From: an uncultured Burkholderiales bacterium
GTDB taxonomy: Bacteria; Pseudomonadota; Gammaproteobacteria; Burkholderiales; Burkholderiaceae_C
Assembly: GCA_903956845.1 (NCBI GenBank)
Contig: CAJBOO010000061.1
Coordinates: forward strand, 1 to 35,577
Length of the DNA: 35,577 bases
Direction: 5' to 3'
Part shown: in pieces, positions 24,239 to 28,153 of the stretch
Layout: each line of letters begins with the position of its first letter
Numbering within the stretch: the first letter of the stretch is position 1
The notes under the pieces: generated by a model
What the model saw: the letters and a program-made list of their open reading frames with translations, nothing else
The model's database searches: none
Told to the model about the DNA's origin: nothing
Position numbers and translations under genes: made by a program

Positions 24239-24655
24239 ATGGCCAATCAATCAGATTCACTCGAGAGCGTCGTCATTGGTGACGGCGTGGTTGTCAAAGG
24301 TGCCTTCACCGTACCGTCAAAAGCCGTCATCAATGGTGTCATTGAAGGTGATTTGACGGCAGAAGAGGTGCTGATCGGTCCAACTGGGCGCATCACTGGC
24401 CGCGTGTCTGCCAAAGTCATCGACGTGCGCGGCCAACTGCACAACACCATCGTCAGTGAAAAAAGCCTGATCGTCAGGGCCACCGGCAAAATTGTCGGTA
24501 AAATCCATTATTCCGAAATTGAAATTGAAAAAGGCGGCGAAATTGAGGGAACCCTCAGCCAAGGCGCTGAACCCTCTGCCTCTGCACCAGCCGCCATCAG
24601 CCAGCCCGCAGCGCCAGCCATTCAACAGGCCAAGCCCCCTGCACCTGGGAACTGA
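24239..24655 (+). CDS. Bactofilin (first copy)
   Basis: A 138-residue bactofilin (DUF583/PF04519): a beta-helical polymer-forming cytoskeletal protein without nucleotide dependence. The repeating core spans about 10-107, with regular V/I-G patterns such as VVIGDGVVVKGAF, INGVIEGDLTAEEVLIG and KIVGKIHYSEIEIEKGG. The tail (108-138) is proline/alanine-rich and probably disordered. It has no signal peptide, so it polymerises in the cytoplasm or on the inner face of the membrane. The strong Shine-Dalgarno AAGGAG fixes the start. It heads a cluster with an M23 peptidase, a second bactofilin and a RodZ-like protein; the M23 gene follows after 19 bases. Confidence 0.95.
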   Translation: MANQSDSLESVVIGDGVVVKGAFTVPSKAVINGVIEGDLTAEEVLIGPTGRITGRVSAKVIDVRGQLHNTIVSEKSLIVRATGKIVGKIHYSEIEIEKGGEIEGTLSQGAEPSASAPAAISQPAAPAIQQAKPPAPGN

Positions 24656-24674
24656 TCCAGCTACTTGATTTTTT

Positions 24675-25718
24675 ATGCGTTCACCCCGCTCGTTTTTTCT
24701 GCACCTGCCCAAGCTGCCCAGCTTGGTCAAGCACGTGTGGACGCGTGAATACCAAGATGTCAAGCTGATCTTGGAGCAAAGCGGAGACCTCAAATATTTC
24801 AACATCCCCGGCGGTTTTCAGCGCATCGTTGCGCGGGGCTCCGTGGTGGCTGGTTTTGCCCTGACTGGCACCATCATTTTTCTCTTGACCACCACCTTGG
24901 TTCTGGGTGTGAGCAGGGCTCGCTTAGAACGTTCCCATGAAGAGGTCTACCGCGCCTTGCTGAGCAGCACCAACGATGGTGGCTCGGGCGACGCCTCTTT
25001 GAATGAAGAGCAAATGGTCACCTTGGCCCAAACCATCCGCGACCGCGACATGAGCATCCGCCGCTTTGTCGAAACCTCGATGGTCACCGTTTCAGAAGAA
25101 AACGACACCCTCAAGGCGCAACTCGAAACGAGTGGCCTGACCGAAAAGATCGTCAAAATCATTCAGCAAAATTCTGCCAATGGTGGTTTCAGTTTGGACA
25201 CCGACTTGCAGTCCAACCCCCTGCTGCGCGGCAAAGTCGCAGAAGAGTTGTCCACCAACCGCGCTTTGCGCGAGGTGTTGTATGCATTGCCCAACCGCAT
25301 GCCGGTGGCCAATTTCAACGTGTCTTCCGACTTTGGTATCCGTAAACACCCCTTGAACGGCAAAACCCACTTCCATACGGGTTTGGACCTGATGAGCGAG
25401 ACGGGCGACGACAAGGTGTTTGCTGTCAAGCCGGGCGTGGTCGTGATGTCAGAATTCCACCCCCAATATGGCAACACCGTCATGATCAGGCATCTGAACG
25501 GTGTCGAGTCACTTTATGCCCACTTGGCGCAACTGAGTGTCAAAGTGGGCGACAAGGTCACCACCGAGACTTTGTTGGGCTATATTGGCAACACAGGCTC
25601 TTCTTCCACCGGGAAGCACCTACACTTGGAAATTTTGGTTGGCGGTTACCCCGTCAATCCACAAAAAGTGATCCGCACCGCTCAGTATGTTCAACAAATC
25701 CAAAACAGCAAACAATAA
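24675..25718 (+). CDS. Membrane-anchored M23 (LytM-type) peptidoglycan endopeptidase
   Basis: A 347-residue bitopic protein: a cytoplasmic tail (1-55, with the amphipathic stretch REYQDVKLILEQSGDLKYFN), one membrane segment (57-78), a periplasmic coiled-coil-like linker (80-165), and a LytM domain (about 212-332). Zinc ligands and catalytic residues are present: HTGLD with H234 and D238, YAHL with H283, and HLHLE with H315 and H317, so it should be active in cutting cross-links. Being flanked by bactofilins resembles bactofilin-linked hydrolases such as LmdC in Hyphomonas, where the cytoplasmic tail meets the filament; that role here is inference. Its last 32 bases overlap the next gene. No Shine-Dalgarno is obvious. 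Confidence 0.93.
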   Translation: MRSPRSFFLHLPKLPSLVKHVWTREYQDVKLILEQSGDLKYFNIPGGFQRIVARGSVVAGFALTGTIIFLLTTTLVLGVSRARLERSHEEVYRALLSSTNDGGSGDASLNEEQMVTLAQTIRDRDMSIRRFVETSMVTVSEENDTLKAQLETSGLTEKIVKIIQQNSANGGFSLDTDLQSNPLLRGKVAEELSTNRALREVLYALPNRMPVANFNVSSDFGIRKHPLNGKTHFHTGLDLMSETGDDKVFAVKPGVVVMSEFHPQYGNTVMIRHLNGVESLYAHLAQLSVKVGDKVTTETLLGYIGNTGSSSTGKHLHLEILVGGYPVNPQKVIRTAQYVQQIQNSKQ

Positions 25719-26154
25719 TGCAAACCAAGTTGCGCAGACTGAACCCTTCCAGGTCCCGCCTGCATCCGCAACCTTGCCAGCTGAGCCTCCAGCGCTCGCA
25801 CAACCCCAGAGAAACAACATGATGGACATCATCTCCTCCAATGCAGCCAAACCTTCCATCTTGAGCGAAGGTTTTTCGTTTCGTGGCGAAATTTCTGCCA
25901 AGGGTGCCATCCATGTGGAAGGCTCTCTGAACGGTCAAGTGCAAGTGGACGAACTCACCATCGGTTCGCGTGGCCAGGTCGAGGGGGTGGTCACCTGCTC
26001 GAGTCTGCACATCAAAGGCAAATTTTCAGGGACTGCCACCTGCAGCGAGTTGATCGTGACATCTTCAGCCTCTGTCGATGGCCACGTGGTCTACCAAACC
26101 CTGTCAGTTCAAAAGGGCGCATCCATCAAAGGTGAGTTGCTGCTGGTCAAATAA
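25687..26154 (+). CDS. Bactofilin (second copy)
   Basis: A 155-residue bactofilin with a long proline/glutamine-rich head (1-58) and the beta-helical core at about 59-153 (EGFSFRGEISAKGAIHVEG, LTIGSRGQVEGVVTCSSLHI, SVDGHVVYQTLSVQKGASIK). In contrast to the first copy the disordered part is N-terminal, so the two paralogues are mirror-like. The start MFNKSK at 25687 overlaps the M23 gene by 32 bases and resembles other bactofilin N-termini. A second start at 25819 (MMDIISS) would give a 111-residue core-only form, and neither has a strong Shine-Dalgarno. The RodZ-like gene follows after 29 bases. Confidence 0.92.
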   Translation: MFNKSKTANNNANQVAQTEPFQVPPASATLPAEPPALAQPQRNNMMDIISSNAAKPSILSEGFSFRGEISAKGAIHVEGSLNGQVQVDELTIGSRGQVEGVVTCSSLHIKGKFSGTATCSELIVTSSASVDGHVVYQTLSVQKGASIKGELLLVK

Positions 26155-26183
26155 ACCAGCGCAAGCCTTGTCAAAGGGTTTGA

Positions 26184-27032
26184 ATGTCAGACATTTCGCA
26201 AATTGACGGTGCCGCAGTTCGATTAAAGCGCGAATCCCAGGGGTGGGTGCTGAACGATTTGGCGACCCGTGCGTGTTTGTCTGTCAAACAAATCAGGCAA
26301 ATTGAAGAAGGCGGCATGAGTGCCTTCTACAGCGAAAGCGTCAAGCTGACCGCGGCCAGAAAAGTGGCTTCCCTGCTCGACATGACCGAGGCGCAATTGT
26401 TTGGTCAAGAACTCCCGCCCCTTGTGCCTGCTTCGGATGATGCTGGCTTTGGCGATGACTTGACCACCTTGGTCGATACCTCCCAGCCCGCCTCAGGTGG
26501 CCGCGCTTTCCAGCCTCAGTTGGACCATGCGCCGATCACGCGCAGTGAAGCCTTGCATGTGCTGGCCCAACCGCCAGAACACTTGGAAGAGACGCAGGCA
26601 GACCCAACGATGGAAGGTGAGGTCTCAGCGCCCACCGCAGAGCCTTCGTTGGCCGTCCCCGCGGGTGATACCAGTGCATCCGAAGCCCCTCAAGATGACA
26701 GCCAACCCGCCAGTGGTGGCTTCAGCGTGTTGAAAGTGGTGGCTTTGTTCGTGGTTGCATTGGCTGCAGCTGCGCTTGTGCAAACCAAGGTGCTGGAGAA
26801 AAAAGCAGACGAGCCTGCCACAGACGCCACCTTGCCTGTGCCCGCTGAGACTTCCATCGCACCGAACCAAGCAACCCCCGAGACAGGGACGCCTGCCACC
26901 CCAGCCCATTTGACAGAGACAGCCCCAGCGGCAGTCAAACCCAGCGCCCCTGAGGCCGCGGCAACCCCAGCAGGGGTTTCCTCACCGACCAGCGCCACCC
27001 CCCCCGCATCGGCGCCAGCTGCCAGCCAATAA
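26184..27032 (+). CDS. RodZ-like helix-turn-helix membrane protein
   Basis: A 282-residue protein with an N-terminal HTH of the RodZ/HTH_25 sort (about 8-66, with LKRESQGWVLNDLATRACLS then VKQIRQIEEG), an acidic, proline-rich cytoplasmic linker (75-178), one membrane segment (about 181-199) and an alanine/proline/threonine-rich periplasmic tail (205-282). It lacks the beta-domain (DUF4115) of true RodZ, so I do not call it rodZ. In RodZ the HTH binds MreB rather than DNA; here the obvious partner is a bactofilin, though that is inference. AAAGGG lies five bases before the ATG. Last gene of the cluster, convergent with hemH. Confidence 0.8.
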   Translation: MSDISQIDGAAVRLKRESQGWVLNDLATRACLSVKQIRQIEEGGMSAFYSESVKLTAARKVASLLDMTEAQLFGQELPPLVPASDDAGFGDDLTTLVDTSQPASGGRAFQPQLDHAPITRSEALHVLAQPPEHLEETQADPTMEGEVSAPTAEPSLAVPAGDTSASEAPQDDSQPASGGFSVLKVVALFVVALAAAALVQTKVLEKKADEPATDATLPVPAETSIAPNQATPETGTPATPAHLTETAPAAVKPSAPEAAATPAGVSSPTSATPPASAPAASQ

Positions 27033-27058: not shown

Positions 27059-28153
27059 TTACTGTTCAGCGCCCATGGCCAAGGCCAAGTCTTTGGAGGT
27101 GTTGCGTTCTTCGGCGGATGCGCCCAGCAGCGGCCAGCCGCGCATGTGCAGGTGGCTGATGTCCGATAAGGCCTGAATCCATGCTGGGCTGTCGTTCAGG
27201 CACTCGATGTAATGGAAGGTGCTGCCCCCTTCTTCCAAGAAGGCGGTCTTGACCTCCATGGCAATTTCTTCCAGGGTCTCCAAACAGTCGCTGACAAAAC
27301 CTGGGCACACTAAATCGACCGAGCGGGTGCCTTGGCGGGCCATTTCTCGCACCGATGGTTCGGTGTAGGGTTCGAGCCATTTCGCCTTTCCGAAGCGGGA
27401 TTGAAAGCAAATCTTGTATTGCGATTTGTCCAATTGCAATGCCTCAGCCAATAAACGACCGGTTTTATGGCATTCGCAGTGGTAAGGGTCGCCAAGTTGG
27501 AGGGTGCGGGCTGGCACACCATGAAAGCTCATGACCAATTGTTCAGCGCGCCCGTGCACCGCCCAATGCGCCTTGATTTTCTCAGCCAAGGCTTGGATGT
27601 AGCCTGGGTGGTCGTGGTAGCGGTTGATGAAGCGAAATTCAGGCACGTTGCGGGTGCGCATGCCCCAGGCATAAACCGCATCAAACACACTCGCCGAGGT
27701 GGTGGCTGAATACTGGGGATAGGCTGGCAACACCAACACGCGGGTCACACCCTCGGCTTTCAGGGCATCAAGCACGTCAGGGATGGCAGGGCTGCCGTAG
27801 CGCATGGCATAGCGCACTTGCACACCTTGTGCCTGCAGTTGGGTGTGCAATGCCTTGGCTTGGCGCTCGGTCCAGACCTTGAGTGGCGATCCTTCAGGCG
27901 TCCAAATGCTGGCGTATTTGTGGGCTGATTTGGCGGGGCGCACCCGCAAAATGATGCCATGCAAGATGGCCAGCCAGAGCAAACGGGGGATTTCAACCAC
28001 CCGGGGATCGCTTAAAAACTCTGCCAAATAGCGTCGCAAAGCGGAGGCGGTGGGGGCGTCTGGGGTGCCCAGGTTGCAGTAAATAACAGCGGTTTGACTG
28101 GCTTGGCCATGGGCATAGGGAGGCTCGGCCGTGAAGCGGGGATTTGATGTCAT
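27059..28153 (-). CDS. hemH: Ferrochelatase
   Basis: Inserts ferrous iron into protoporphyrin IX in the last step of haem synthesis; peripheral to the inner membrane. At 364 residues it is the normal bacterial length. NLGTPDAP near the N-terminus, FLSDPRVVE, LPAYPQYSATTSASVFDAV, the catalytic histidine in SFHGVP and the glutamate in CLETLEEI are present. Its ATG overlaps the hpnE stop by four bases (28150-28153), so it is the last gene of hpnC-hpnD-hpnE-hemH. The cysteine-bearing region (CPGFVSDC) is intact. No odd features in the protein; the operon partnership is discussed in the findings. Confidence 0.96.
   Translation of the reverse strand: MTSNPRFTAEPPYAHGQASQTAVIYCNLGTPDAPTASALRRYLAEFLSDPRVVEIPRLLWLAILHGIILRVRPAKSAHKYASIWTPEGSPLKVWTERQAKALHTQLQAQGVQVRYAMRYGSPAIPDVLDALKAEGVTRVLVLPAYPQYSATTSASVFDAVYAWGMRTRNVPEFRFINRYHDHPGYIQALAEKIKAHWAVHGRAEQLVMSFHGVPARTLQLGDPYHCECHKTGRLLAEALQLDKSQYKICFQSRFGKAKWLEPYTEPSVREMARQGTRSVDLVCPGFVSDCLETLEEIAMEVKTAFLEEGGSTFHYIECLNDSPAWIQALSDISHLHMRGWPLLGASAEERNTSKDLALAMGAEQ

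Follow-up and report, generated by a model that had tools for sequence, protein, structure and literature searches.

The window analysed here is a 35,577-nucleotide contig (CAJBOO010000061.1, our contig C61) of the 2.4-Mb, 98% complete assembly of an uncultured Burkholderiales bacterium, and its subject is a cluster of four genes on the forward strand that encode a bactofilin (bac1, 24239-24655, 138 amino acids (aa)), an M23 endopeptidase (24675-25718, 347 aa), a second bactofilin (bac2, 25687-26154, 155 aa) and a RodZ-related helix-turn-helix (HTH) protein with a membrane segment (T1, 26184-27032, 282 aa). The genes follow one another with a 19-base gap, a 32-base overlap and a 29-base gap, and the open reading frames (ORFs) and Pfam matches confirm the positions and spacing given in a preliminary description of this DNA. 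We refer to the four genes as the quartet, to the three without the HTH gene as the trio and to a divergent RodZ of the same group as T2; L, G and C numbers denote loci, genomes and contigs of the window's own genome, and f25 and f31 are other families of the order. What is said below of published systems relates to excerpts of the papers cited.

Two bactofilins around an M23 endopeptidase

Both bactofilins exceed the cut-off of the bactofilin family PF04519 (27.9 bits), bac1 with 72 bits over residues 12-106 of 138 and bac2 with 80.1 bits over residues 57-151 of 155, which places the disordered tail at the C-terminus of the first and at the N-terminus of the second and agrees with the mirror-image layout described earlier. 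The bac2 protein begins with MFNKSKT (25687-25707), a candidate membrane-targeting peptide that can be compared with MFSKQAKS, the membrane-targeting peptide of Caulobacter BacA (PMC12448750); on inspection, the start of bac1 has no sequence resembling such a peptide. For comparison we gathered 61 related loci by a scan with the M23 protein, which favours close relatives and, as the loci were found through the M23 gene, makes that gene present in all of them by construction. An MF[NS]K start is found in 53 of the 59 loci with a complete bac2, and the overlap of the bac2 start with the end of the M23 gene is kept in 50/61.

The enzyme encoded between the bactofilins matches PF01551 with 93.7 bits (cut-off 28.7). 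Its zinc ligands, H234/D238 and H315/H317 (the HxH motif), are invariant in 30 aligned rows, both motifs are present in 60/61 loci, and hydropathy peaks at residues 51-69 and 61-79 place a membrane segment at about residues 54-79 (24834-24911), all of which upholds the earlier view of an apparently active, membrane-anchored peptidase. The AlphaFold 2 (AF2) model consists of a helix (residues 11-23), a β-hairpin predicted to be cytoplasmic (codons 29-44, 24759-24806; strands 29-35 and 38-44) and a long helix from residue 46 (46-99), and its confidence is modest, with a mean predicted local distance difference test (pLDDT) score of 59.8 and residue blocks 21-50 at 71-81. We regard the hairpin as a candidate bactofilin-binding element.

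This arrangement resembles the BacA-LmdC module of Hyphomonas neptunium and Rhodospirillum rubrum, where a bactofilin gene likewise adjoins and overlaps the gene of a bitopic M23 endopeptidase that keeps its zinc ligands and carries a cytoplasmic β-hairpin ahead of its membrane helix (PMC10945521), the hairpin of the present enzyme being an AF2 prediction. In Hyphomonas and Rhodospirillum LmdC binds bactofilin via its cytoplasmic tail, the hairpin was shown to be needed for BacA binding in Rhodospirillum, and adjacency of bactofilin and M23 genes has already been published for 226 species (PMC10945521). Unlike BacA-LmdC, the cluster described here has its enzyme flanked by two dissimilar bactofilins and contains a fourth, RodZ-related gene. 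On sequence grounds, we count the M23 enzyme and its bactofilins as a new instance of the published BacA-LmdC module.

The trio is therefore known in kind, and the new part, within the openly licensed literature searched, is the RodZ-related fourth gene together with a recurrent pairing of RodZ-like and bactofilin genes. In the excerpts of PMC10945521 RodZ appears solely as an elongasome marker, and the mentions of RodZ in that paper, in PMC10259793 and in PMC13393453 (the last a reference-list entry) do not describe a RodZ-bactofilin gene pairing. Neither a RodZ-related fourth subunit nor a recurrent pairing of this kind was met in the excerpts of openly licensed PMC literature, and a literature search by taxon showed nothing on bactofilin among the entries listed.

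The fourth gene and its relation to RodZ

T1 opens with an HTH domain (residues 8-72, 26205-26399) that AF2 models confidently as helices between residues 9 and 72 (pLDDT 94-98 for residues 11-40 and 51-70, 83 for 41-50) and that has 13 invariant positions in 28 rows. A disordered linker leads to a membrane segment at residues 181-199 (26724-26780), seen both as a single hydropathy peak and as an AF2 helix (180-200), and one such segment passes the threshold in 54/54 quartet HTH proteins, the window's included. The tail that follows consists to 67% of Pro, Ala, Ser and Thr, and RodZ_C (PF13464) was not found in T1 at E ≤ 1, so that the protein has the layout first proposed for it. Within the linker, residues 120-131 (RSEALHVLAQPP, 26541-26576) form a candidate binding motif; its pattern R[SA][EH]x[LW]Hx[LF]A[QN]PP is present in 28/56 quartet HTH proteins, among them that of L068, a count reached after the pattern was widened on seeing the misses (strict form 22/56, first relaxed form 22/56).

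The fourth gene is a regular part of the cluster in close relatives. It follows bac2 at −1 to 39 bases in 56 of 59 evaluable loci, two being lost to this count because the L057 contig ends 44 bases after the M23 stop and L016 is cut inside bac2, and bac1 precedes the M23 gene within 60 bases in all 59 loci that allow it to be placed (L014 and L070 being cut). The expectation that the four genes stay together thus holds among close relatives and is not borne out beyond them: at E ≤ 1e-40 the M23 profile matches at least 1 of 399 genomes of the order, the match listed being the own genome, and at E ≤ 1e-3 the HTH profile matches 7/60 genomes of the family, the own genome at 1.2e-41 and six others no better than 1.3e-5. 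Among the genomes sampled, the quartet is seen in one Limnohabitans-like group only. The same quartet and neighbours as in Comamonadaceae loci are also carried by L025, from a metagenome-assembled genome whose record title, Bordetella parapertussis, seems doubtful as a label. Downstream of the quartet lies a convergent ferrochelatase gene (27059-28153), and a match to ferrochelatase is found in 53/61 of the related loci.

From the amino acid sequence and the fold predicted from it, T1 is RodZ-related. The best Pfam match of the protein is HTH_25, which scores 21.7 bits when the window's protein is searched, under the cut-off of 24.6, and 25 bits when the genome is searched, a score that exceeds it. 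Aligned with solved structures by VIA-align 2, the HTH domain scores highest with Staphylococcus aureus YmfM (3fym, Z 10.6) and with RodZ (2wus, Z 10.3), the next structure reaching 9.2. We take YmfM to be a RodZ-type protein; its structure title speaks of a DNA-binding membrane protein. The 2wus structure is that of Thermotoga RodZ in complex with MreB. Foldseek alone puts 2wus at rank 14 and its E-values do not single out RodZ, which VIA-align 2 does by a margin of 1.1 Z. A sequence search of the PDB with the HTH profile gave six weak matches (E 0.015-0.079) that include XRE regulators and the chlamydial RodZ CT009 (4gqm, E 0.079, positions 9-75).

The relatives of the domain in other genera point in the same direction. 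At E ≤ 1e-7 the HTH profile matches at least 22/300 genomes of the order, own included. Setting the own genome aside leaves 21 among the matches listed, and the locus matched in 17 of them also fits a canonical-RodZ profile (E ≤ 1e-10); five of those 17 had been used in building that profile, and the four that do not fit belong to f25. In 5 of 20 neighbourhoods of HTH-profile matches (L149, L151, L152, L154 and L156) the gene is a rodZ beside ispG and/or hisS; others are HTH membrane proteins encoded at other places in the genome. A tree of the HTH domain (72 columns, three XRE rows as outgroup, the canonical row L082 left out for want of an HTH-profile match) places 27 of the 28 T1 rows together at 88/78, with L068 apart; its deep branches are open and its long branches meet.

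Like RodZ of Thermotoga (2wus) and E. coli, and like YmfM (3fym) as we assume it to be, T1 has an N-terminal HTH of the same fold and a single membrane segment. Unlike RodZ, it lacks RodZ_C and the aromatic residues that contact MreB, and its gene stands in a bactofilin operon, away from rlmN-ispG. By our own residue mapping, the positions of E. coli RodZ F60 and Y64 are V/I and A/S/T in 28/28 quartet proteins and aromatic in none. They are also non-aromatic in 19/19 divergent RodZ rows, and canonical rows with a letter there are aromatic in 20/26 and 12/26 cases; because divergent and some canonical RodZ proteins lack these aromatics too, they discriminate weakly between a bactofilin partner and MreB. 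The preliminary description had treated a RodZ-like member without the β-domain as new; the domain is indeed absent, but in this T1 is not unique, as CT009 is likewise a RodZ-type protein without a periplasmic domain and still interacts with MreB (PMC4047632). The departures of T1 from RodZ therefore do not show a loss of MreB binding. Unlike T1, CT009 keeps two aromatic HTH residues needed for its MreB interaction (PMC4047632).

The earlier statement that no mreB lies nearby is correct for the window and does not extend to the genome, which has a clear MreB on another contig and matches to bactofilin at six places, including a partial one where a contig begins. Canonical RodZ presents a different picture. 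PF13464 is found in 59/60 family genomes, one per genus, the sole miss being the own genome, where RodZ_C has no match at E ≤ 0.001 and where rlmN is directly followed by ispG on contig C121 (L093) with no rodZ between them. Across the genus weak RodZ_C matches occur in 5/61 genomes (E between 8.5e-5 and 6.2e-4, with one match slightly over the cut-off) and in 3/26 of those at least 90% complete; in the three neighbourhoods read of these five (G116, G076 and G087; the others are G071 and G119) the match lies inside the divergent RodZ. This T2, whose own-genome copy is on contig C147, combines an HTH and a membrane segment with a RodZ_C-like domain at its C-terminus. Pfam alone scores that domain under the cut-off (15.4-20.2 bits in five proteins), but aligned together with three f31 relatives against canonical RodZ_C it gives an hhalign probability of 90.8, with 0.3 for the reversed control. 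Canonical rodZ is gone from the sampled genus, and the divergent RodZ is kept elsewhere in the genome.

RodZ-like genes beside bactofilin genes

We compared the positions of bactofilins and HTH-profile matches across 16 genomes. Nine belong to the genus and seven were reached via quartet or trio loci; the comparison excludes f31, the own genome and two duplicate genomes. HTH matches outside the quartet lie within 3 kb of a bactofilin in 16/24 cases, with 0.33 expected at random. T2 stands directly before a bactofilin gene (3-5 base gap or 4-base overlap) in L107, L167, L168 and L169, and the coordinates in G106 and G111 show the two genes on one strand and similarly spaced. The third type is an HTH membrane protein of 145 aa that occurs near another bactofilin in L161-L165, with one ORF between the two in two of the three loci listed in full. 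The own genome has, on contig C2, a soluble 113-aa HTH_25 protein encoded 5 bases before a bactofilin gene. In L108 and L109, T2 precedes a second lmdC-bactofilin pair, which is followed by the quartet including T1. Because other RodZ-like genes of the group are so often beside bactofilin genes, a pattern that the preliminary description had not anticipated, the idea that T1 is an adaptor between bactofilin and membrane is strengthened.

Two further observations concern the surroundings of these genes. In the superclusters L108 (1-10000) and L109 a bactofilin and min-like genes are joined to the divergent RodZ, the second lmdC-bactofilin pair and the entire quartet. In L161, L162 and L165 the 145-aa protein and its bactofilin adjoin ORFs that resemble fliL, fliM and fliN and hint at a flagellar link.

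A possible bactofilin adaptor and its rivals

We put at roughly 0.54 the probability that the quartet is an envelope-shaping operon in which T1 is a RodZ-derived membrane adaptor recruited to the bactofilins. In such an operon the two bactofilins would form a cytoplasmic scaffold, bac2 having, unlike bac1, a start that resembles an inner-membrane-binding peptide. The scaffold would recruit the M23 enzyme through its cytoplasmic β-hairpin, by analogy with LmdC, and so set where peptidoglycan is opened. The HTH of T1, possibly together with the linker motif RSExLHxLAQPPE, would dock on a bactofilin in the cytoplasm, in the way that the HTH of RodZ docks on MreB, the actin-like scaffold protein that the RodZ family is otherwise known to serve. 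Its one membrane helix and the disordered Pro/Ala tail would tie the scaffold to the envelope. The distribution of the genes suggests that T1 arose as a paralogue in a lineage that lost canonical rodZ, the divergent RodZ being kept elsewhere.

The closest functional analogue of such an adaptor is Csd5 of Helicobacter pylori, which is not known to have an HTH. In the CcmA-Csd5/Csd7 system the bitopic Csd5 brings the bactofilin CcmA to the envelope via its cytoplasmic N-terminal region, and the hydrolase Csd1 is under bactofilin control (PMC9507126). A bitopic protein tying a bactofilin to the envelope is thus common to both systems, for T1 as a proposal. Unlike T1, Csd5 has a periplasmic SH3 domain (PMC9507126); the likeness is drawn from its published description.

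Several observations weigh against the adaptor. L049, L054 and L056 have the trio without an adjoining HTH gene, and an HTH-profile search of their genomes shows no quartet-type HTH; in these loci the distance between T2 and the trio is about 3.5 to 4 kb. Eight of the 24 HTH matches in the neighbourhood comparison are away from bactofilins (one of two in G099, both in G421 and G422, and those of G070, G420 and G425), the 6-kb own-genome contig with T2 has no bactofilin, which would make the count 16/25, and because the genomes are related the 16 cases perhaps represent three or four independent arrangements. L166 has the 145-aa protein with no bactofilin nearby, and G075, a 99% complete member of the genus, is the one genome of the 40 searched without any HTH-profile match. 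The HTH tree leaves the origin of T1 unfixed. The charges flanking its membrane segment, 0 before and 3 after (averages of 1.27 and 1.25 over 56 proteins), are unlike those of a textbook anchor with its N-terminus inside. RodZ-like proteins of f31 have an HTH close to that of the quartet (E 9.6e-24 to 3.4e-26) in genomes with 0, 0 and 1 bactofilin, which means that this type of HTH did not arise for bactofilins. Finally, gene neighbourhood cannot separate bactofilin binding from MreB binding. One of the f31 genomes also carries two HTH genes in tandem (L141, 9738-11094), a short one of 131 aa and a full RodZ-like one of 318 aa.

The adaptor proposed in the preliminary description, a RodZ counterpart for a different filament, is thus borne out as far as the bactofilin-M23 module and a linked, RodZ-related HTH protein go, and has to share the field with a role at MreB because mreB is present in the genome and canonical rodZ is not. 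On that account T1 would still bind MreB and cross-link the bactofilin-M23 module to the MreB elongasome, which we think rather unlikely while regarding it as the most serious competitor. Binding to MreB is known for RodZ HTHs, even in a RodZ that lacks the periplasmic domain (PMC4047632), and the f31 genomes keep a similar HTH with almost no bactofilin; the divergent RodZ with its RodZ_C-like domain, however, is already available to MreB, and the positions of F60 and Y64 are non-aromatic throughout the quartet proteins, a weak point in view of how poorly they discriminate.

It is improbable that T1 is instead a membrane-tethered transcription factor for the operon or other envelope genes. Its fold is of the XRE type, many DNA-binding XRE domains align at Z 8-9, Foldseek alone places several regulators above RodZ, and the net charge is mildly positive (mean 1.46 over 28). 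Nevertheless, its two best structural matches are RodZ-type (YmfM by our assumption), its relatives in other genera are largely RodZ genes and its recurrent neighbour is a bactofilin gene, and the relative in L068 stops just past its membrane segment, with no sensor domain beyond. The least probable of these explanations, to our mind, is that the gene has stayed in the operon as a mere passenger, a RodZ paralogue in decay that plays no part in the bactofilin module. The linker and tail of T1 do differ between loci in both length and sequence, 28/56 proteins are without the linker motif and three loci have no such gene adjoining the trio; against this stand the strong conservation of the HTH, the membrane segment that passes the threshold in every protein scored and the presence of the gene in place in nearly all evaluable loci.

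For few species is it known what, beyond a short membrane peptide, attaches bactofilins to the envelope. A RodZ-derived partner, if true, would join two shape systems that have been treated as separate, MreB-RodZ and bactofilin-M23, and reading T1 as a bactofilin adaptor predicts a specific and easily tested contact. More tentatively, and with the odds somewhat against it, RodZ-type HTH proteins may have changed filament: after the loss of canonical rodZ in this freshwater group, paralogues of at least three kinds, often found beside bactofilins, would have become bactofilin-membrane adaptors, and RodZ would then be a general plug from filament to envelope and not an accessory of MreB. That canonical RodZ is missing throughout the sampled genus while the own genome has mreB is in itself a natural experiment on the need for RodZ.

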